Assembly: GCA_032622095.1 (NCBI GenBank) | Contig: CP136066.1 | Coordinates: 3,619,784 to 3,683,783, forward strand | Direction: 5' to 3' | Source of the DNA: Siphonodentalium dalli | Lineage: Eukaryota; Mollusca; Scaphopoda; Gadilida; Siphonodentaliidae | DNA length: 64,000 nt | Shown here: piece by piece, positions 23,801 to 42,535 of the stretch | Numbering within the stretch: the first letter of the stretch is position 1 | Layout: every line of letters begins with the position of its first letter | Program-made: the position numbers and the translations under genes | Notes under the pieces: model-generated | Told to the model about the DNA's origin: nothing | The model's input: only the letters and a program-made list of their open reading frames with translations | Database searches by the model: none

Positions 23801-24042
23801 AATTGTTAACGAATCCGCTCCAATGTTCAGCTTACTCTCAAATTAATGGCAGTTTATTTAGCCCAAGTCTATATTTAACTCAGGCAAAATACAGATTCAT
23901 ACAAGAAATACTGTTCGTGAATTCGAGCGATCTGATTGGCCGAGGCGTGTGAACCGGTTTATAACTATAATATATAACAAACAAGAAAAAACAATCAATA
24001 ATTCATTTGCATGTTATATTCATGGAACTACCAGTTTCACTG

Positions 24043-24266
24043 CTATTCTATGTCCAATTCACAGTAATATGGACACGCGCTCCACCAACATGGGGCATAT
24101 ATCTGCTTGAAGCTGTTAGCCCCCCATTCGTTTGAAGTGTAGACACAGTCGTGGCCCTCTTTGGGTCCGTTCGATGGTTGGAATACGGGAAGATCTAGTG
24201 GTTTACCGTCGTATCCATAAAACTCTCCTTCAACGATATCATCCCGGCCATCGAGCCACATCCAAC
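24043..24266 (-). CDS. Exon 3 (last) of PAN + C-type lectin-like gene
   Basis: Encodes the C-terminal half of a C-type lectin-like domain, a secreted carbohydrate- or protein-binding fold. Visible features are the opening GWMWLDG (counterpart of the family's W-I-G-L strand), a DCV block, an NEW block and the closing YYCEL with the last conserved cysteine, then TAG at 24043-24045. The usual calcium/sugar motif (EPN or QPD) reads QPS and the WND motif is not kept, so classical calcium-dependent sugar binding is doubtful. The acceptor is a pyrimidine-rich tract ending TTTATTCCAG (AG at 24267-24268), phase 1. It joins exon 2 in frame. No canonical AATAAA was found just downstream. Confidence 0.75.
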
Positions 24267-24283
24267 CTGGAATAAAGGTTAAC

Positions 24284-24421
24284 AGTGATAACAACCGAAC
24301 TACTGGCCTACAACACATATATCATGGAGCCACATCCAACATGCAGTCAACGGTAAACTGTCACCACACACAACACATAAAGGATATCGTGATATATTAC
24401 TAGTATATAATAGACATATAG

Positions 24422-24511
<90 letters not shown>

Positions 24512-25456
24512 GCATAGGTATGTACATATGGTTCCTGATCGATGGCATGTTGAAATTCGATGAATATAATTGCAGTTTAACTCTGCCACCGCTCCTAGCT
24601 GATTGTCGTCCAACACGCAGTCAACGGTTAAATATCATTTCACGCGTACTACTCGCATACTACACATATCGGAGAGGTACATCAAACCTGCAATGGAATG
24701 TGAAAGGTCGCCACACCCATACTAATCGCATACAAGACATATATAATCGAATTACATCCAACTTGCAATCAAAGGTTAAATGTCGTCGCGTCCGTACTAC
24801 TCGCATACAACACATATAGCATCGAGCCAAATCCAACCTACAATCAAAGGTTAAAGGTCGTTACATCCTCCGTACTACTCGCATACAACACGTATGGCAT
24901 CGAGTCATATCCAATCTGCAATCAAAGGTTAAAGTTCGTCACATCCGTACTACTCGCATACAACACATATAGCATAGAGCAACACCCAACCTGCAGTCAA
25001 AGGTTAAAGGTCGTGACATCCGTACTACTCGCATACAACACATATAGCATCAAGCCACATCCAACTTGTGTCAAGGTTAAAGTTAGTCACATCCGTACTA
25101 CTCGCACAAAACACATATAGCATAGAGCAAAACCCAACCTGCAGTCAAAGGTTAAAGGTCGTGCCATCCGTACTACTCGCATACAACACATATAGCATCG
25201 AGCCATATTCAACTTGCATCAAAGGTTAAAGTTAGTCACATCCGTAGTACTCGCATACAACACATATAGCATAGAGCAACACCCAACCTGCAGTCAGAGG
25301 TTAAAGGTCGTGACATCCGCACTACTCGCATACAACACATATATCATAGAGCAACACCCAACCTGCAGTCAAAGGTTAAACATCGCCACATCCGCACTAC
25401 CCGCATACAACACATATAGCATCAAGCCACATCCAACTTGCAGTCAGAGGTTAAAA
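24284..25456 (-). repeat. 75-bp minisatellite built from the exon 3 splice acceptor
   Basis: About eleven 75-bp units (unit starts near 24644, 24719, 24793, 24871, 24947, 25022, 25096, 25170, 25245, 25320 and 25395), plus one diverged unit next to exon 3 (24290-24360) separated by a TA microsatellite. On the minus strand each unit carries TTAACCTTTGACTGCAG followed by GTTGGATGTGGCTC or a variant, matching the real acceptor and first codons of exon 3 (TTAACCTTTATTCCAG, GTTGGATGTGGCTC). Most units keep the AG. Two unit types, one with AGAGCAACACCCAACC and one with GAGCCACATCCAAC, largely alternate, giving a ~150-bp higher-order period. The ORFs across it are artefacts. Confidence 0.9.
24423..24507. 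repeat. Long TA microsatellite in intron 2
   Basis: About 85 bases of uninterrupted (TA)n, the longest dinucleotide run in the window. It lies between the diverged first unit and the main 75-bp array. Confidence 0.95.
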
Positions 25457-25801
25457 CAAAACAAGGTTCTATTTTGTAAGTACAATTCATGTTTGCATAT
25501 TGGCAACTGATAGACATAATTGTATTGGCGCACGTAGTACCCTATGATTGTGTTGTAGTATCATTAGAACGTGTAGTTCATTATGAGAAAGAATTCCAAT
25601 ACAGTGGACTTTATATTTTGAATAGCAGTTAACTGTTTCTATAATAAAACACCATTCATGAGTAGTTACCCCATAGGAATACTCAGACAAATCGTTTGTT
25701 GCTCTCATGATCTAAACATGACTCCTTCTGCATTTGTATTTATACATCGTGTATAACAACGGTCGGTTTGAAATGTTCCAGACCAGTTGTACATCACTGA
25801 C

Positions 25802-25999
25802 CTGGTGTGTTGAGAGTGTACATCAGTTCCTTGACATACAGATAGACTCCCTCGTTCTTATATTTGAGGATATGCCCGCCATCATTAGCACAGTCCACCA
25901 TCGCCTCGGACTGTAGTGCCCCTCCGCGCCAACTCAGACACAGCTTCATCGGGATCGCTGGACCGGAATAGAGTGAGTACCCTTTATCTTCCGGACATG
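25802..25999 (-). CDS. Exon 2 of PAN + C-type lectin-like gene
   Basis: A 198-nt phase 1-1 exon encoding the first half of a C-type lectin-like domain: an opening CPEDKGYS block with the first cysteine, a KLCLSW strand, then a helix with EAMVDCANDGGHIL, the family's A...C...GG.L signature, and a Tyr-rich second helix. The acceptor ends AATTATAG (AG at 26000-26001). The donor is CCAG then GTCAGT (25801 downward). Joined to exon 3 it reads TPG-WMWLDG without a frame break. Intron 2 separates it from exon 3 by 1,535 bases. The ORF running beyond both ends is intronic read-through. Confidence 0.75.
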
Positions 26000-26001
26000 C
26001 T

Positions 26002-26699
26002 ATAATTAAAATTAAGAAGTAACCAATATAAGTATCTTCCCTGAACTTGTACAGGGAAACTATAACCAGATAACAAAAACATCCACGACAGCTGACTGGA
26101 TAATTATTTTGACAAAATGAATACACAAATAAATGTACAATTGAGATTGTGAAAAAAGATGCATACTATTTGGAACCTTGCTGAATATTGTGATCACCTG
26201 ACCCCACAAGAACAACTTTGCGGTGTAATGTGTTTATACATGTACCTCGGAATTTATTCTGGAACATTTTGTAGTCAGGGAAATTGTGAAATTTGAAAAG
26301 GAAAAAATACAATAGTCCATCTTGCTTATTGTATGAGTTTATCAGAATTGAGACCCGCACCATGCCGAGTATGGGGTGTTGGTGAAATAGGTCCGTTTCA
26401 ACAAACATGACACGAACATTAGCATTGTCACCAATGGAAAATAAATATGTATGTATAACATATCAGGACATTGCCTGTTTGGGGCGCGTTCAAACACTGA
26501 CAAGTTTGTGTGGTATATGTGAAGGTAGTTCAAACCATATGGTGCGAAATTATATATGAACGGAAGCATGCGAATAACGTACACCTTACATGGATAAAGC
26601 GTAAACCATACATGCGTTTAATAATAATAGTAATTATAATGACAAGTTTGATATAGCGATTAACCAATTACTTGCTCTAACACGCTTGGTATATTACCA
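26002..26699. other. Intron 1, lower part; nothing recognised
   Basis: AT-rich with no ORF showing domain features. Confidence 0.45.
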
Positions 26700-27046
26700 C
26701 AGTCATTTGTACAAGCCAACCAACGAACCGGCTGCAGCCATTGCAGGCGCTGCTCTAGTTTGATCAGAACATGCCCAGGTACTCATCAGCACGACAAGCT
26801 GACGGGTACTCGTTTAACGTATGAGTGATGCGAAGCCGACACAGTACGAGCGACCTTGCTCAAGGTCATAACTTGGAGCGGGTTTTTAAACAGAAGCAAT
26901 TCGACAATAATGATTGCGCGTCGCTCAAAGCGGCCAAGCCACTGATATGTGGACACTCAATGACCGGCGACGCACTGCGGACCCACATCGATGTGCTTAA
27001 AGCGAAGACAATACCGACATGCTAACCACTGAACCACGGAGCTCCA
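26700..27046 (-). mobile_element. Candidate tRNA-derived SINE
   Basis: On the minus strand, CTCCGTGGTTCAGTGGTTAG at about 27043-27023 closely resembles a tRNA 5' end with a polymerase III A box (TGGTTCAGTGG). A clear B box is not found at the expected distance. The body runs toward a distal block rich in GCTGCAGCCGGTTCG and ends near 26700. No other copy is visible in the window, so the SINE call rests on the head alone. Confidence 0.4.
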
Positions 27047-27404
27047 TAATGTACACCATTCCTAAATATATCGATATTATAAATACTCGTTATTTAGTTC
27101 CACAGGTAACAGTGACATTGGTGCAAACAATACATACAAGCGTTGCGTATACCGACATGCTGGGTACACCATGTAAATGGTGGATACGCCAGTATACATA
27201 TTTTTTTCTTCTTATTGTTTTCTTTTATTTAGATGTTACTATATGTTACGTTGTCGGCAGGAAAACTTTATATATGGTCATGCTGCTACTGTTCAATACA
27301 CTAATATTTAGTTCCGAATATTTCACTGTTAGCATTATGCTTGTAAATAATGTATAAATACAATATCAATAAATACTACAATGTGCCGCCATATGTACAT
27401 ATAG

Positions 27405-27550
27405 AATATCCGTATAGTTTGACGAGATACTAGGTTTATTTTCGCGAGTATGATTCAGCAAATGGGGGACCGAGCTTTAACGAGGTCCCCCATTTGCTGA
27501 CTCATACGAGCGAAAATAATACTCGTATCTCGTCAAACTATATGGATATT
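27405..27550. repeat. 146-bp near-perfect palindrome
   Basis: The left arm runs from AATATCCGTATAGTTTGACG and the right arm ends in CGTCAAACTATATGGATATT. The centre is GGGGGACC, a 12-base loop, then GGTCCCCC. Arms are about 67 bases with few mismatches. It would transcribe to a long hairpin on either strand. It shares no sequence with the 69-bp palindrome family. Confidence 0.9.
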
Positions 27551-28050
27551 TTTTTTATCCATCGCCAACTATTGTTTGAAAGTCATTATAATCAATTACA
27601 TTTATATAAATATGGAATTAACCGCGAATTTCGTTGGAATATATTTAAAACAATTACAAGTTTTTCGGTCGGCGAAGTGTTAAAATAAACTCATTAATAT
27701 TCATAAGGCTGTGACCTGCCAATCCTTACGCGAGTGATGAGGTCCCTAACTCACAACTCGACATTTGGCGCCGTTACGCTGTCGAGAGTAAGTCCAATCT
27801 ACCCCGCATCAAATAGAGAACAATTATTCGGGGAACCACCCACAATATGCCCTCAGTTGTTGTAATAATAACTGTACAAGTGTGCGTTTTAACATCATTT
27901 TCAAAATATCATGAATTCAAGTTTACTAGAAGTTTCGTTCCACATGTCAGTCTGTTCAAAAATACAAAATGCTACTTCCGTCCGACACAAAATTTAACAA
28001 TCACAAATTCATTCTTGTGAGGATATTTGTTGGTCTTGTGTAATGTCACG

Positions 28051-28056
28051 TTTATT
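28051..28056 (-). terminator. AATAAA polyadenylation signal downstream of Crypton-like ORF
   Basis: AATAAA on the minus strand about 100 bases past the stop at 28154. Position and strand fit the recombinase-like pseudogene; chance occurrence in AT-rich DNA cannot be excluded. Confidence 0.35.
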
Positions 28057-28153
28057 TTGGAACTGGACATGTGTATATATACATGTTGGATATGGTAACA
28101 GTGTTACTATGAAACAAACTTTGGAGCGCTGGCTGAACAACATTTTGCTGACA

Positions 28154-29823
28154 CTACTGTTTATTTGCGCTGTTGGAAGAAACACTGGTACTGCACACAG
28201 GCAAAGAACTGCTGCTAGTGTTACTGCCACAAGTAGGATTATTGATGATGTTGATAGGAACTGTTGTCGAATATGGAGCAGACACTGTCGTGGCTGTTGT
28301 AGAAGATGGAAATTCAAATCTGAGTGAATCGATAGTGCACATACCGATACTTCTATTTTCTGGAGGAGGCACGCTAACCGTCGCACTAGGTGTTGGAGGA
28401 ACAAACTGAGAACGAGACACATGTACTCCACTGATAATGTGCGAACAATGCTCCTGTTGCTTGCTACTGATGCAAGATTAGTTGTTGATTGATGCCAAAT
28501 TTCGATGTCCTGAGATGTTTGCTATATCTGTCGCTTCGATGTTGTTCTCCCTCAGCTTGCTGACCAAAGTTTTCCTGACACTCGTATTAGTGAAGCGCTT
28601 TTCTGTACTGTTTTCTATGTGAGTAGCCATCAACGGCATGATGTTTTCAAGCTTCCTTTCACACACAGGCTGCTTTCTGAACCATAGGTCATTTTCAGCA
28701 GTTACTGGTGTCGTCCGCGTAGCAATATAAAATGGATCATCAATGTTGCTGTAACCAAATGGACGCTTTTGACGCAAATAATTTGTATACTTGTACTGGA
28801 TCATGACCATAATTTGTTCCTGTTGCGTACATTCTTGGGGGCACATCTCTTACATTGCGAACATATACTCCAGTTCTGGTTTTGGTTTGACGTTCATTTA
28901 TTTGTATATATTCGTGCCCATCTTCATCCGTATTTAATTTAACGTCACCCCATGCCAAATGTATGTGTTCTGTTTTCCCACGAAGTCCGAGATGTAAAGT
29001 GTTATTGAACCACATGGTGTTTAGTACTGCCTCGGGGCTTGAAATGCCCAACTGCTCACTTTGAAATAATTGACTTATATCCGAATCGGTCAGTCGATCT
29101 GCCTTATATGGCCTATTACCACGGCCGGATTTCTTAAGTTGCTTCTGCTTTGCCAAAAGTGCCCGTCTGGTAATATCAAAGCAGTCATATTTCGCATTCA
29201 TTATCGTTGTTCCGTATTTGTGTCTTTTTAGGTACCGATCCACACTTGACATGATAGAGCGAAGAGATGATGGTTCAAATTAATCCCCGTTCCTCTTGCG
29301 AACACTCAGTAGGAATTTACCCAGGACCATATATAATTCCGACGATGGGATCTCGTGAATTTTTCTATATTCACCGGTTCTTGTCAAGTACTGTTCAAGG
29401 ATGTTCAAATCTTATTATTTATTTTTTTAGTGTATTTCTGTTTTCCTGCTCATGAATGAAGTCATTCAGATTTTGATCGGTGACATCACCAAACCTTTGG
29501 AGTGTGGGCATATCAAATTGTTCAGAAATGTTCATATCTGGCAGTGGCACAATATGTCTGCTAGGCTCTCTAGAAGGCTCAGTTACATTCAAAACTGTTT
29601 CAATCTCAATAATGTTATTACTTGTTACCGGTAGATCAACAGCTTCAAGTATAACAGGTGTGACATTTTGATTGTTGTTGTTGGAATTTTCTGCAATCTG
29701 ATCACCATTATCCTCAGACTCAGGATACGGAGCTAAGAACATTATTTCTAAATCTTCTTCAGACATTTCTTCGAGGAGTCTGATTTTGAAAATCGGATTT
29801 ATATATCCCGTTGATTCTGCCAT
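28154..29823 (-). pseudogene. Crypton/DUF3504 tyrosine recombinase-like pseudogene
   Basis: One reading path from ATG at 29823 to TAG at 28154, interrupted four times. The N-terminal part (29823-29419) is acidic and ends in a RFGDVTDQNLNDFI block typical of the helical lead-in of DUF3504 proteins (KIAA1958/ZMYM-like, derived from Crypton recombinases). The catalytic core follows: GLRGKTEH with the first Arg, a WGDVKL strand, NERQTKTRTG, PRMYATG, RPFGYSN, NTSVRKT with the second Arg but Thr where His is usual, and SGHRN. A Ser/Thr/Pro-rich tail ends the frame. Lesions: a frame change at an A7 run (29422-29428), TAA at 29280-29282, a one-base frame change at an A4 run (about 28767-28770), and TAA at 28478-28480 where the catalytic Tyr is expected. 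Family certain; dead copy likely. A recently dying domesticated gene is the alternative. Confidence 0.85.
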
Positions 29824-30692
29824 GTTTACAAATTCATAAAAACGCCGTGCGCTTTATTTTGACAGTTCGCAACCACGAGGCAGACGGCATGAATTGTTTA
29901 CGTTTTGTTATCGAGGCTCGCTTCAAACTCTTTGTTTTTACACAAATAATTACTAGCACTGTATGTTTAATAGCCAATAATTTAGAAATAAATGTTCGAT
30001 CATACTTTATATTTCATTTTATAACCCGGTTTTAGATACAGTTGGATGAAAACTGATTCATGTCGCTTACAATAGAATCGAAGCGAGCGTATTATTGGAT
30101 GGCACCTTGTGAACTCTTGCGGGGTCAAGTACTTGTAGCCGTTTTTGCTATATTTTAGCACGTGCTAAAATAAAGCTGTGGTTTATTTTGCAGCCTTTAT
30201 CTATATAGTAGGCGACAAAGGTGACGGATAAAATTGTATACAAGTATGTTCTATATGTTAACGCTGCGTATCTTGAAGTATTATTTCAATAGTTGGAACT
30301 ATATTAAGTTTGAACTCCTCATACAGTTCAAATTTGATATCGCTATTTAATACTAATTTTCGTATTTCTTTTTAAACATCGGGACCGTGCTCTTGGTGTA
30401 TCTTTTATAAATACGTATCGCTTCTTGCTCTACAATTCGCAATAATCCACCCACGTAGCATAAATGCAGAAGAGAGAAAATGTATACATTATGTATATCA
30501 TATAACGATATATAGTAATGTTGTCGAGCATCGGGTGCGCAACCATTCGGATGCGCAATTTATTTTATATATATATATTTATTTATGTTTTTTTTCTCCA
30601 AGTGGCAAATACAATTATTTGTCTTTCTTCCCACTTACTTTACTCTTATTACTATAATTGTAATTAATTTAACTTTTCTCACTTTTCTCAAC
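29824..30692. other. Upstream of Crypton-like pseudogene; part-repeated sequence
   Basis: No ORF of note. About 30345-30440 matches 11115-11230 (TTAATACT.ATTTTCGTATTT, CGCTTCTT.CTCTACAA), so the similarity between the two decayed-ORF loci extends past the coding part. Short TA runs occur near 30500-30570. Confidence 0.5.
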
Positions 30693-31068
30693 TTTATTGA
30701 AATTTAATCATCGTCGGTGTCTTGACCCCTTAAACGTATTTCAAGGAGTTTCTTGAATTTGCTCACTGCTTCCGCCGAGGCCCATTTATAATTATATCCA
30801 AGTTTGGTCAGCTGGACCATTTTATTCATGATAGTATTATGTATGGGGATGTTTTCAATCGATGCTGCTATTCTATCAAACATCTTTAATTTTTTAGAAA
30901 GATATCCAAATCTGTATCGATGAATTCTTATTCTGGGATGCTCTCTTCATTCATTATCATATCAACCGTATCGGACCACACTCCCGCTCCTTCCGCGTCA
31001 TTGCTGACGCGCTTCAACAGACTCTTGAATGTATCTATCTCGTTGAAACATTTCACAGCTTTCTTAAG
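30693..31068 (-). pseudogene. Decayed ORF of unknown family, copy 2
   Basis: Minus-strand coding remnant homologous to 11314-11649. From 31068 an open stretch reads KKAVKCFNEIDTFKSLLKRV through an acidic IMNEESIPE, then a stop. After a frame change come FLKKLKMF, ASIENIP, MVQLTKLGYNYKW and EAVSKFKKLLEIR, ending at TAA 30704-30706 with AATAAA at 30693-30698. Its 5' side is cut by the TIR element starting at 31073. The acidic ORF on the other side (35968-35809) may be the same gene's start. Family not recognised. Confidence 0.5.
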
Positions 31069-31350
31069 CTAGCCACACATGATTGCGTATGCGTATGGTG
31101 CGTTGTGTTATTTGTATCGCATCCGATTGTCGGACGGAAAATAAAATAGAAATGCACGGGCACCCACACATGCATGCGGTTCCGATGCGAAACTATTATG
31201 ACGCTCCGAATGCCTCCGATTTTTATCGGACCGAAAATACTCGTATTTTCCATCCGATAGAAATCGTCGCTACGTTTGCGTTCGCAGCGGAATTCCCAAT
31301 TATTTATGACGTCATCATGGAAAAGCCGCGATTTTTCAAAGTAATAAAAC

Positions 31351-31629
31351 ATGCCGCGAATTAGATCTACTCCCATAACACCCCAAGAAGTGGAAGATGT
31401 GTGCCTTCTAATTAAACCCCGGGTCTATCTGCATGTGTGCCAGCATGTGGACTATGACGACAACCAGAAATCATTTAATGCGTGGCAGGATATTTCGGAG
31501 AAGATCAGGGTCGGACAAATATTCCAGGCACGTATGATGGGGTGGTTGGGTGTCTCTCGGGTCCGAAAAGCTATTTTTTCCATGGGCCAATTTTGTTTCC
31601 CCATTTCTGCTATTGAGTCTTATTTTTGA
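31351..31629 (+). CDS. MADF-domain-like ORF inside TIR element
   Basis: ATG at 31351 opens MPRIRSTPITPQEVEDVC. Residues about 13-52 fit the first two helices of a MADF (Myb/SANT-like) DNA-binding domain: hydrophobic LLIKPRVYLHV, DYDDNQKSF, then NAWQDISEKI, the family's best-kept stretch. A full MADF domain needs a third helix, absent after residue ~55. Either an intron starts there or the copy is broken. Position just inside the left TIR suggests a transposon-encoded accessory DNA-binding protein. The last ~35 codons look non-coding. Confidence 0.5.
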   Translation: MPRIRSTPITPQEVEDVCLLIKPRVYLHVCQHVDYDDNQKSFNAWQDISEKIRVGQIFQARMMGWLGVSRVRKAIFSMGQFCFPISAIESYF

Positions 31630-31871
31630 TGTGTTTTTAACAGCAACAGGTCATATATAGTTAATTGCAATGCTATACTATATATAGATTATCAGAAGTT
31701 GGATCATTTGCACAATGGCCAACAATAACCCAAACCCAACTGGATAGAACAAGAAACTGCGATAATGAAAACATAAAATTTAATCAGTGTTCCATCTACT
31801 GATACAAAAAAATAAGAATAACTATGCAGAACTCAGCTGAAAATAAACAATAAAATGAAAGCACACTTGAC

Positions 31872-32417
31872 CAGTGTTCACGCTGCCGTGAGCAAATTTC
31901 GCAAATTGCGAAAGAAAAACAGAAGTGGCTCAACAAAATGGGCTTGTGGCTAAAGAAAGTGGTTCAAAGAATTTGAGTGTATGGCTCCTAAATGAAATGC
32001 TGTCCGACAGATTAAGTTCAACAATCAGGCAACAATATCCCGCCACGAGAGCATGAATGAAAGCATTCGCTGATTCTCAGCTTATGCCACAGGGACTGGT
32101 TGAAATTGTATTACGCACAGTGAATGGGTTTCATATTTCTACTCAATAAAACACACATTCATTGTACAGCTTTCACATCGCCAGACATTAGTGAAACAAA
32201 GAAGTGACACATATCCTATAATATCAGACATTGCAAAAACACTATATTGTGTACCCGTGTCGACTGGAATGTGAGAGGGCCTTCTCGTACCAACATTCAA
32301 TCAAAGATAAAATATAGGATGGAAAAATGTGGCTCAAGAAAACGAAAAATGGCTTCAAACAAATCACAAGTGGCTGAGGTGGTGGCTCCAACATTTGTTG
32401 GGCCAGTGTGAACACTG
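31872..32417 (+). mobile_element. Non-autonomous hAT element, 546 bp, with transposase remnant
   Basis: Left end CAGTGTTCACGCTGCC and right end, reverse complemented, CAGTGTTCACACTGGCC are hAT-style terminal inverted repeats. The flanks are an exact 8-bp target duplication CACTTGAC (31864-31871 and 32418-32425), the length diagnostic of hAT insertion. Inside, on the plus strand, 32228-32266 reads DIAKTLYCVPVST and, after a two-base frame change, 32270-32290 reads CERAFSY. This is the conserved VPVS..CER.FS block of the hAT C-terminal dimerisation domain. The rest of the transposase is missing, so it is an internally deleted copy. Confidence 0.9.
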
Positions 32418-32483
32418 CACTTGACCATGCATATGTGACATGGAAATAAAGATATAATAAATAATTGAATAAAATAGACTTTT

Positions 32484-34811
32484 TTTCCATATGAGTTTTG
32501 GAAATTTTTCTGGCTTGACTTAGGCCCAATTCTATGTGAATCACTCAATGAAGCTTATAATAAAGGGGAACTCTCAATCACCCAGAAACAAGGACTAATT
32601 ACTCTGATCCCAAAAAAAGATAAAGAAAGACATCATTTGAAAAACTGGCGACCAATTTCACTCTTAAATATATCTTACAAATTAGCTTCTTCATGCATAG
32701 CTAAAAGATTAAAACGTGTTCTACCATATATAATAAGTGATGATCAAACAGGATTCTTAAAAAATCGTTACATCGGAGATAATACTAGACTTATCTATGA
32801 CCTTATTCACGAGACGAAATTGGCCGGTAAACCTGGGTTGCTGCTCCTCCTAGACTTCGAAAAAGCTTTTGATTCAGTATCATGGAAATTTATACATAAA
32901 TGCCTCGACTTTTTTAATTTTGGAGATGCCATGAAGAGGTGGATTTCTATATTTTATACGAATATCAACTCATCTATTTTAATAAATGGGCATATATCTC
33001 AGAGTTTCAAACTGCATCGTGGCTGTCGACAGGGTGACCCAGTCTCGCCGTATATTTTTTTGATATGCGCGGAAATCTTAGCTATTATGATAAAGTCCAA
33101 TGACCGCATTAAAGGTATCAACCTCGGCAATTTAGAATACAAAATTACACAGTATGCAGACGACACGACTCTCATCTTGGACGGTAGTGATGAAAGCCTT
33201 AGGGAAGTATATACTATTTTAAACTCATTTGCAGATTATTCAGGCCTGAAAATTAACAATAGCAAGTGTCAGGCGTCGTGGATTGGCTCTTATACGGACC
33301 GTACGGATATTATATGCCCAGATCTTGGACTAAAATTTGATAGTACTTTCAATCTCCTTGGAATACACTTTGATACCAACCTTGACAACATGCATATTAA
33401 TTATGATAAAAAACTTGCAGAAGTCAAACGTTTGATAGCAACATGGAAACACCGGTTACTTACACCCATTGGTCGAATAACGGTGATAAAATCGCTAATA
33501 CTCCCAAAATTAACGCATCTGTTTGTAGCTCTACCAAATCCCAGTAATATTTTTATGAAAAATCTTGACACAGCGCTCTTTAATTTTCTCTGGAACTCTA
33601 AGCGTGATCGAGTTAAACGAAAAGTTATTTGTCAGGGTTATAAGAATGGCGGATTAAAAATGGTTGATGTAAACAAATTTATGCTATCCATGAAAATAAC
33701 TTGGGTGAGGCGCCTCGTAACTAAAAGTGCCAAATGGATCCCCTTAACAGATATACCTTTACGCAATGACCCTATGTTCCTTACTTATGACTATTCTTAC
33801 ATAGAAAAACAGGCACAAAAATTAACCAATCCTTTTTGGCATGATGTCCTGATGGCATTCACAAAATTTCTAGAGAAAGATCGAAACAATCGTAAAATAT
33901 CAGCATGTACATTATGGAATAACCCAAACATAAAGCAATATGGAAAAGTAATAAATTTCACCTCCTGGCGGGAAAAAGGGATCATATTTTTAAATGATAT
34001 GCTGGACAATAATGATCGCTTTCTTACACGAGACGATTTACTAAAGATTTATAACATACGCACAAACTTTATCACTCTTAATAACATTCAACATCAAATA
34101 AAATTACTTACAAAAAAACTTGACCAGCCTATAACTCGAATTTGCAGCCCCCTTTTACCAAATAATTTCATTAAACTGCTTAAAAACTGTCGAGGAGGAC
34201 AGGACTTTTATAACATCTTAATGGATACTCCAACTTCTACAGTAGCGCACAGAAAATGGCAAGCGTTATATCCTGACAACACAATTCAATGGTGTAAAGT
34301 AGATAAACTACCCTTTCTCACGACGCCTGACACAAAACTGCAATGGCTACAATTCCGAATAAACTCACGAATATTATCAACTAACAAGTTTCTTAAAATG
34401 TCCAATTTACGACAAGATGATAAATGCGATAGATGTAAAAGCGAGACAGAAGACATCTCCCACATATTTTGGAACTGTGTTCACGTTCAGAAATTCATTA
34501 AGGAACTCAGCGATTGGGGTAAAATTAACAGCATTGATCTATGTCCCCAACAGATGACAATGATTCTCGGCTCATCACCAACGAATCCGAACTTTATAAC
34601 GAACATGCTATGGCTTCTAATTAAACAATACATTTATAGGACCAAATTCAAGCCAACTAACGTATCGCTAAATGTTTTCCTCAAAGAATTGAATTATAGA
34701 TACCAATGTGAGAAGTATACCGCACGATGCCAATCGAAACAAGAAGAATTTTCGAAAAACTGGTTCCTTTTAGAAAAAGCTATACATATACGCACGAGTC
34801 CACACAAATAA
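32484..34811 (+). CDS. LINE ORF2 fragment: reverse transcriptase + C-terminal zinc knuckle
   Basis: An open frame of about 775 codons with no start of its own; ATG at 32637 is internal, since typical L1/Tx1-like sequence (YEFWKFFWLDLGPIL, ITQKQGLITLIPKKDK) precedes it in frame from 32484. Numbering from 32637, motifs are NWRPISLLN (3-11), LDFEKAFDSVSW (73-84) with the first catalytic Asp, GCRQGDPVSPYIF (about 130-142) and YADDTT (173-178) with the Asp pair. A thumb region follows (LLGIHFDT, then NFLWNSKRDRVKRKV and GGLKMVD), and a late CDRCKSETEDISHIFWNC CCHC-type knuckle at about 597. The frame ends at TAA 34809-34811. Full ORF2 proteins are about 1,200-1,300 residues, so about 500 N-terminal residues including the endonuclease are absent. 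It cannot mobilise itself. Confidence 0.9.
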   Translation, partial: FPYEFWKFFWLDLGPILCESLNEAYNKGELSITQKQGLITLIPKKDKERHHLKNWRPISLLNISYKLASSCIAKRLKRVLPYIISDDQTGFLKNRYIGDNTRLIYDLIHETKLAGKPGLLLLLDFEKAFDSVSWKFIHKCLDFFNFGDAMKRWISIFYTNINSSILINGHISQSFKLHRGCRQGDPVSPYIFLICAEILAIMIKSNDRIKGINLGNLEYKITQYADDTTLILDGSDESLREVYTILNSFADYSGLKINNSKCQASWIGSYTDRTDIICPDLGLKFDSTFNLLGIHFDTNLDNMHINYDKKLAEVKRLIATWKHRLLTPIGRITVIKSLILPKLTHLFVALPNPSNIFMKNLDTALFNFLWNSKRDRVKRKVICQGYKNGGLKMVDVNKFMLSMKITWVRRLVTKSAKWIPLTDIPLRNDPMFLTYDYSYIEKQAQKLTNPFWHDVLMAFTKFLEKDRNNRKISACTLWNNPNIKQYGKVINFTSWREKGIIFLNDMLDNNDRFLTRDDLLKIYNIRTNFITLNNIQHQIKLLTKKLDQPITRICSPLLPNNFIKLLKNCRGGQDFYNILMDTPTSTVAHRKWQALYPDNTIQWCKVDKLPFLTTPDTKLQWLQFRINSRILSTNKFLKMSNLRQDDKCDRCKSETEDISHIFWNCVHVQKFIKELSDWGKINSIDLCPQQMTMILGSSPTNPNFITNMLWLLIKQYIYRTKFKPTNVSLNVFLKELNYRYQCEKYTARCQSKQEEFSKNWFLLEKAIHIRTSPHK

Positions 34812-40486: not shown

Positions 40487-40532
40487 ACCTGATGGTTGCT
40501 ATAACAAGGGTTAACCAGGGTTGGTAACTAAC

Positions 40533-40815
40533 CTGGTCCGAAGGCTTGACAATCTGTGTCGTTAATCACACCAGCAGACAGACGACACTCGCCACTTCCG
40601 GTGACGTAACAGAATGTGACACACCGCGGGTCAGCCAGGCAGGCGAACGAACAAACGCGCTGATTCGCCAAAACCAATGTCGAAAAGAGAGTGGCGTTTT
40701 CCAGTGGCGTTTTTAAGTTTGTAGCTGCTGTGAACAACATGGAATGAAACTGGCTCTGGATTAACACAAACTCAGAGAAGATCACCGCTAACAAAGCAAT
40801 TGAAGCTGGATTCAT
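40533..40815 (-). CDS. Exon 1 of PAN + C-type lectin-like gene (signal peptide, PAN/apple-like)
   Basis: Start chosen at ATG 40815: the next ~20 residues (MNPASIALLAVIFSEFVLIQ) form a typical secretion signal, and the frame further upstream looks non-coding. A cysteine-rich module follows with VCSFAC, PRC, TFC, GEC and TDC spaced as in PAN/apple domains. The exon ends CCAG then GTTAGT (donor 40532 downward), phase 1, 283 nt. Spliced to exons 2 and 3 it gives a 234-residue secreted protein: signal (1-~20), PAN-like (~45-92), lectin-like (~96-234). PAN domains bind proteins or glycans, so an extracellular recognition role is inferred. The 14.5-kb intron could hide other exons; linkage to exon 2 rests on phase, strand and domain logic. 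Confidence 0.65.
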
Positions 40816-41631
40816 GCTTTTAAAGATTGAGGTAACACTTAAAACAATAGCGCTTGTCTGCCGGTACGTCATGTGGTTGCTGTTCAACGTTGATGAAACG
40901 ATTGCGCATGTCGCGGTGTGCTTTGTAGTTTTATTCGATATTATGGTTACTGGTGTACCATATATGACGCACATTGCATTATGTAAATAATGTGCGATCA
41001 GCAAAACACTCAACGCCGGGGGGGGGACACCACAGGGATGTTGTTTCGCCTTAATACACGGTGAACATGCGCGAATCCCATATTAATATGAATCAACATG
41101 AATCCTGGATATTGACCAGGGCTTATCAATAATCAAAGGGAACCATGCACTGATAATGGACTCAAACAACCGACAACTGCTGTCATGTCTGATTGTTGAT
41201 GTCCTAAGCTGTGTGTGTTACATGGCCATACAATTATAAAACTGCAGATCAATAAGATGGTTCCTCAGATACTTTGCTGATAAGTCAGTTGTTGGCAGTG
41301 TGATATAATATATTTGATTCGAATTGCAAGAATTATGACAAATGTCAAAATAGTTGAAACTTGCTTGTCCTACCTTACAGAGAGCATGTTGATAAAATTA
41401 CCTACATAATATATCCAAAATGACTGATTGGTTCGTGGTGATTTTTGGTGAGCCCTGATCAGTCACTATGTCGATTCATATAATAATGGAAAAATATATT
41501 CTAATTTTGATTGCCAGAAATACTTTGGCATTTCCAAATCACAAAAAAAAGGTTATTAACATCATTCAGACTAAGCACACACATTGGCTATAGACAGAGA
41601 CCGATATAAACGACCTTAACCTGATACACAA
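40816..41631. other. Upstream of lectin exon 1; promoter not resolved
   Basis: A C/G run at 41018-41026 and AT-rich sequence. No clear TATA box or initiator can be assigned on the minus strand. Confidence 0.4.
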
Positions 41632-41826: not shown

Positions 41827-42080
41827 TCAACCTAGAACTACAAGGTACACTTCAAAAAACGAATTTAAAAATAACTCAGCAGTACAGTAAACTGTAAAGC
41901 ACATATTTCCAAGCTAGATACTTCGATATTGATTATATAATGTGTTGTTCTGTATCAGTCACTTTGCATGTCATTGTTATATTTTCAGTGTTTGTGTTTA
42001 AATAGTTTGGCTGACACCATTGTAATGGTTTGCTTTCAATAACATCTTGAATCTATAATCCGTTCCACGCAAGTTCACCG

Positions 42081-42535
42081 AAAAGATTGACCGTGGATCA
42101 TAGTGCTCCCAAAACGACTCAGAAAAGATTGACCGTAAATCCTAGTGCTCCAAAGAGGACCCATAAAAGTGTATCCTAGTACCCAAAGAGGACTCAGAGA
42201 AGATTGACCGTGTATCCTAGTACTCCAAAGAGGACTCATAAAAGATTGACGGTGTATCCTAGTGCTCCAAAGAGGACTCAGAAAAGATTGACCGTGGATC
42301 CGAGTTCTCCAAAGAGGACTCATACAAGATTGACCATGTATCCTAGTGCTCCAAAGAGGACTCAGAAAAGATTGACCGTGGATCCGAGTTCTCCAAAGAG
42401 GACTCATAAAAGATTGACCATGTATCCTAGTGCTCCAAAGAGGACTCAGAAAAGATTGACCGTGGATCCGAGTTCTCCAAAGAGGACTCATAAAAGATTG
42501 ACCGTGTATCCTAGTGCTCCAATGAGGACTCATAG
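42081..42535 (+). repeat. 42-bp minisatellite with alternating unit types
   Basis: About eleven units; one is shortened near 42165-42197. Two variants (one with GTGGATCCGAGTTCTCC, one with TATCCTAGTGCTCC) alternate between 42282 and 42491, giving an 84-bp higher-order period. Because 42 is divisible by three, long ORFs exist on both strands (152 and 136 codons). They reflect the period and are not called as genes. Confidence 0.95.

Follow-up and report, generated by a model that had tools for sequence, protein, structure and literature searches.

Duplicated intron-exon boundaries have been described in amphioxus under the name of mirages, whose copy number varies and alongside which normal splicing stays intact in the cases covered by the cited portions of the reports (PMC3087553, PMC3902484); the same portions state that in Adh and troponin C the mirages give rise to no aberrant mRNAs and that PGBD5 holds similar imperfect repeats (PMC3902484). 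In amphioxus BflGb6, as far as these sources describe it, the duplicated segment runs from the 3' end of an intron into the 5' portion of the exon that follows, AG/GT is kept in many but not all units (PMC3087553), and the units turn over as tandem repeats ordinarily do, homogenisation sparing the edges of the cluster (PMC3087553, PMC3902484). The array analysed here resembles BflGb6 in the first two respects and appears to do so in the third; it differs in having 75-bp units, 13 of which could be aligned, and in being more decayed, the amphioxus units measuring 150-160 bp and numbering 6 or 3 in the part of the report that gives them (PMC3087553). It shares four structural features with mirages: it is minisatellite-like, its units span an intron-exon boundary, the authentic boundary stands at its end and the splice signal is partly kept.

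Further parallels come from other gene systems, each as presented in the cited part of its source. In potato RdRp, a duplication across an intron end and exon start likewise turned the upstream exon piece into intron, although there a single duplication produced a new intron whose splicing is backed by RNA, whereas here the copies are many and give no sign of a new intron (PMC4974935). The UBC array also consists of tandem AGGT units (here 6 of the 13 units and the real boundary), but its AGGT sites, which can act as donor or acceptor, lie at the borders of coding monomers and undergo stochastic splicing, while the units here are intronic and hold candidate sites (PMC10809524). In IFI6/G1P3 a minisatellite multiplies a splice site within a gene, as here, except that donors are multiplied there, with transcript use reported, and acceptors here (Turri 1995; PMC4526556).

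Host gene and layout of the array

The window, by which we mean the whole 64-kb stretch of DNA that was analysed, carries on its minus strand a gene whose exons 2 and 3, joined in phase 1, form a 139-residue open stretch. We call this gene only C-type-lectin-like because its matches are weak: the Pfam Lectin_C match reaches 16.3 bits against a gathering cut-off of 22.6 and is therefore sub-threshold (E 0.017), and the structure-sequence matches include an IgE receptor chain (E 0.0038) and a type II antifreeze chain (E 0.0046), the top one by E-value (2lht, 0.0022) being short and to a chain not named as a lectin. The features of the locus, in the order in which the gene is read, are as follows.

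25802..25999, minus strand: exon 2 of the lectin-like gene (CPEDKG...LNTP), ending in phase 1 with CCAG and then the donor GTCAGT
25456..25801, minus strand: 5' part of the intron, unique sequence lacking similarity to the unit
24609..25455, minus strand: 75-bp minisatellite comprising U1-U11 and the head of U12, 11.3 copies in all (TRF, unit alignment)
24688..25380, minus strand: stretch with the seven exact-AG units, with U4, U6 and U10 in between carrying CAAG
24424..24508, unstranded: perfect AT microsatellite of 42.5 copies between U12 and U13 (TRF)
24284..24357, minus strand: U13, the unit adjoining the exon, directly before the genuine acceptor; AG lost (CATG)
24267..24283, minus strand: genuine acceptor GTTAACCTTTATTCCAG, ranking 2 of 78 AGs in 24200-26050
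24043..24266, minus strand: exon 3 with the stop codon, its first 18 nt equal to the unit consensus
24200..24248, minus strand: exon 3 nt 19-67, from which the unit tail probably derives (nt 28-60 agree with it at 24 of 33 aligned bases)
23853..23858, minus strand: AATAAA, which points to exon 3 as the terminal exon

The donor of exon 2 at 25801 is the top-scoring GT in 24260-25810 (5.23), and the stop at 24043 together with the AATAAA at 23858 suggests that exon 3 is the last exon of the gene. A simple thresholded scan of 26005-34000 returned no signal-peptide exon 1, and no convincing second lectin exon was found elsewhere in the window.

Within the intron ahead of exon 3, TRF called the 75-bp period along with periods of 148 and 372 bp over the same interval. 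We aligned 13 units with the real boundary and derived a consensus from 12 of them, U12 (24632-24557) being excluded as too decayed. These figures bear out the first-pass annotation, which had proposed about eleven units each carrying an acceptor box and an exon head; the span that it gave, 24043..25456, covers the array and runs on through the real exon 3 (24266-24043), which lies outside it. Between the AT tract and U13 the trace of a remnant unit is weak, its score being reached by 23 of 1000 shuffles, and of 88 pairs of inverted repeats, considered as possible marks of a mobile element around the array, the longest 25 all involve the AT tract. On the plus strand, 24704-25120 and 25196-25510 hold open frames of 138 and 104 aa with 25-residue repeats, which are probably a by-product of 75 being a multiple of 3.

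The unit might conceivably be a mobile repeat or dispersed satellite that had acquired a lectin boundary at some other locus before it inserted here, as the richness of the window in tandem repeats (53 TRF rows) and the presence of mobile-element genes would allow; this we regard as scarcely credible, since no convincing further copy of the unit occurs elsewhere in the 64-kb window and U13 runs directly into the real exon 3 in register, the authentic boundary thereby closing the array. A search of viral contigs for relatives gave 3 pattern matches, 0 of them confirmed.

Several other elements lie in the surroundings. At 28481-29279 (minus strand) there is a broken tyrosine-recombinase-like mobile element, which we take to resemble Crypton elements; two overlapping frames match DUF3504 (E 2.8e-13 and, below the cut-off, 1e-4), and the second also matches Phage_integrase below the cut-off (2.2e-4). 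A 777-aa open frame at 32478-34811 (plus strand) matches RVT_1 (E 4.9e-38) and, sub-cut-off, zf-RVT, which makes it a LINE-like retrotransposon, and an open frame at 40531-41082 (minus strand) has a PAN domain match just below the cut-off (20.8 against 21.4 bits). A 42-bp minisatellite of 11 copies at 42080-42532 has long open frames on both strands, the minus-strand frame matching the HGWP repeat model at 28.8 bits (cut-off 21.9), perhaps through low complexity. Finally, the stretch GCTCCGTGGTTCAGTGGTTAGCATG at about 27045-26940 (minus strand) resembles by eye the head of a tRNA-derived SINE and was negative with ARAGORN and Rfam, scans that gave no tRNA or Rfam matches in the entire 64-kb window.

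Unit content and extent of the copied segment

The 12-unit consensus reads TTTAACCTTTGACTGCAG followed, across the splice point, by GTTGGATGTGGCTCGATG, and the real site reads GTTAACCTTTATTCCAG followed by the same GTTGGATGTGGCTCGATG; the first 18 nt of exon 3 are thus identical to the consensus at 18 of 18 positions, and the intron box differs in its first base (T in the consensus, G in the real site) and in having TTTGACTGCAG where the real site has TTTATTCCAG. Each 75-bp unit accordingly spans the intron-exon boundary of its host gene, with the exon head on one side and the intron box on the other. A 26-mer of splice box and exon head, allowing up to 3 mismatches, occurs at 8 places, all of them in the array, and at a maximum of 0 in 100 shuffles; the likeness of unit layout to the genuine acceptor, which the first-pass annotation had pointed out, is confirmed. 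The derivation of the array from the intron/exon-3 boundary, with decoy acceptors left behind, is supported. As to its direction, the start of exon 3 (MWLDGRDDI) aligns weakly with SWIGLRDLD of the IgE receptor domain (E 0.0038 for the whole chain) and so looks like a conserved C-type lectin core, which suggests that the exon came first and was the source, the array being the copy.

The copied segment probably comprised some 14-18 nt of intron and about 60 nt of exon, such that the unit would contain not only the acceptor and the first codons already recognised in it but a larger share of exon, probably about 57 of its 75 nt. The left edge of the array coincides with a TTTAACC box. The preceding intron, 25801-25456, does not resemble the unit (best score 16 against a null mean of 19.7, reached by 947 of 1000 shuffles), and the left break is therefore placed at this box; under simple tandem duplication the unit tail should consequently derive from deeper in exon 3. 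The tail is indeed collinear with exon 3. Across exon nt 28-60, 24 of the 33 aligned bases agree, and ahead of a common GTTG the two sequences differ in length by 6 nt, which keeps the codon phase (read by hand).

All alignments and tests of the tail were framed after the sequence or the alignment had been seen, and their figures are to be read in that light: 7 and 18 of 5000 shuffles attained the local score of 30.5, as did 5 of 17887 window positions, all of them one locus, while an anchored extension of the tail scored 23.5, a value attained in 2 of 1500 shuffles of the exon, in 15 of 1500 of the unit and at 0 of 450 other GATG sites. A stricter end-to-end test gave a weaker result, its scores being attained in 76-165 of 10000 shuffles and at 59-151 of some 41,740 positions in the window. 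Taken singly, 5 of the 13 units scored high against exon 3 (0-4 of 500 shuffles), U2 gave 14 of 500 and the other 7 gave 43-322 of 500.

An alternative is that only the 18 nt of exon were duplicated together with 57 nt of true intron, the likeness of the tail to exon 3 being due to chance. It would account for the uneven identity of head and tail (18/18 against 24/33; Fisher p 0.019), which under one shared history would need uneven change, and it sits well with the value of about 0.01 from the end-to-end test and with the 7 of 13 units that, past the head, do not clearly match exon 3. An array of this origin would begin with a tail, however, yet its left edge is the TTTAACC box, a difficulty that could be removed by supposing that this edge was deleted later, and the tail extension outscores 450 of 450 control sites; we therefore consider this origin rather unlikely and favour a tail copied from exon 3. 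The two ends of the segment so delimited share GTTAACC/GTAAACC, which by hand would imply a founding unit of 77 bp, against the 75 observed.

Decoy acceptors and splicing

An AG at the exact position is present in 7 of the 13 units and AGGT in 6 of 13, a pattern of many but not all; 4 of 13 carry CAAG, one base later, and the remaining 2 (U12 and U13, the two units nearest the exon) have lost the AG.

25363 (U2), 25288 (U3), 25139 (U5), 24991 (U7), 24916 (U8), 24838 (U9) and 24688 (U11), minus strand: G of the exact AG

Under an approximate splice-site matrix, one that gives exon 2's own acceptor only 1.13 and hence is rough, the real acceptor scores 5.57 (rank 2 of 78 AGs in 24200-26050), U11 6.50, U2, U5 and U7 5.07, U3 5.00, U8 3.57 and U9 3.40. 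By the same rough measure five decoys come close to the real site or outscore it and two fall about 2 bits short of it, and the top 9 of the 78 AGs are the 7 exact-AG decoys, the real site and, at rank 8, one AG within exon 2, as would be expected were the array an expansion of the exon boundary that left decoys behind. All 11 decoy joins tested (7 exact and 4 shifted) truncate the protein 3-26 codons past exon 2.

The first-pass annotation had thus rightly anticipated that use of a decoy would cut the lectin domain short, and its statement that most units keep the AG is true by a narrow count; its TAG about 13 codons in is reached from 4 of the 11 decoys (U2, U5, U7 and U9), the other 7 stopping at 3, 17, 18, 22, 22, 22 and 26. 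Its further suggestions, that the array tunes splicing or makes poison exons, went unsupported.

Were the array to regulate the gene, the decoys would compete with the real acceptor and copy number would set the amount of full-length lectin, a reading to which the acceptor ranking on the rough matrix, with U11 above the real site, and the truncation by every join tested both lend some weight. We nonetheless hold it to be very unlikely: the column of the AG's G (7/12) is among the 6 most variable of the 75 unit columns, which gives no sign of the decoys being maintained, the two units nearest the exon have no AG, the matrix is crude, and normal splicing is reported for published mirages in the portions of the sources cited (PMC3087553, PMC3902484). 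Selection keeping the decoy AGs was rejected on the variability of that same column, and poison exons were rejected because the array has no strong donor, its best candidate scoring 2.19 against 5.23 for the donor of exon 2. Exon-junction-dependent decay needs a junction downstream of the stop. With exon 3 apparently the last, the main outcome of a decoy splice would be a truncated product, its stop followed by no later junction, and not a poison exon of the classic type.

The first two bases of exon 3 are GT, so a splice to an AG/GTT unit would also re-create a donor-like site, from which a second splice to the real exon might follow. The six AGGT units would then be ratchet points for a stepwise removal of the intron that leaves the mRNA unchanged, and the tolerance of such arrays would be explained as well; with in-array donors of 2.19 or less against 5.23, we give such self-erasing decoys only a very slim chance. 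Mostly silent decoys are the reading that we retain.

Turnover, proposed origin and significance

Pairwise identities are highest in the interior, where U2, U3, U5 and U7 are 89-96% alike (U7 being 95-96% like U2, U3 and U5), and fall toward the exon: U11 is 67-72% and U13 72-81% like U1-U10, and U12 is 44-56% like the other units, U11 and U12 being the most decayed. Inner units that are more alike and a decayed exon-side edge would fit unequal exchange, though U1, at the far edge, is still 79-85% like U2-U10, so that the decay is lopsided.

We propose that the terminal part of the intron, starting at the TTTAACC box, was duplicated in tandem together with roughly the first 60 nt of exon 3, perhaps via the short end match GTTAACC/GTAAACC, and that unequal exchange would have expanded the product into the 75-bp minisatellite. 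The last copy would have stayed the working exon, and the upstream copies would have become intron and decayed; the spliceosome most probably keeps to the real acceptor, any use of decoys being low-level noise that gives a truncated lectin-like domain. Taken as a whole, this account of boundary duplication, expansion by unequal exchange and mostly silent decoys appears to us likely to be correct. The array belongs by its structure to the kind described in amphioxus and probably has little effect on its gene, and variation of its length between individuals is plausible, by analogy, because published mirages vary in copy number in the material cited (PMC3087553).

Mirages have been put forward, in the cited part of the source, as a route to new introns (PMC3087553), and the edges of the present array allow the founding segment to be inferred. 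In addition, the series of acceptors from intact to decaying within one intron would be useful for studying how the spliceosome chooses among similar sites. Beyond its interest for intron origin and splice-site choice, the array is ordinary repeat evolution within a gene.
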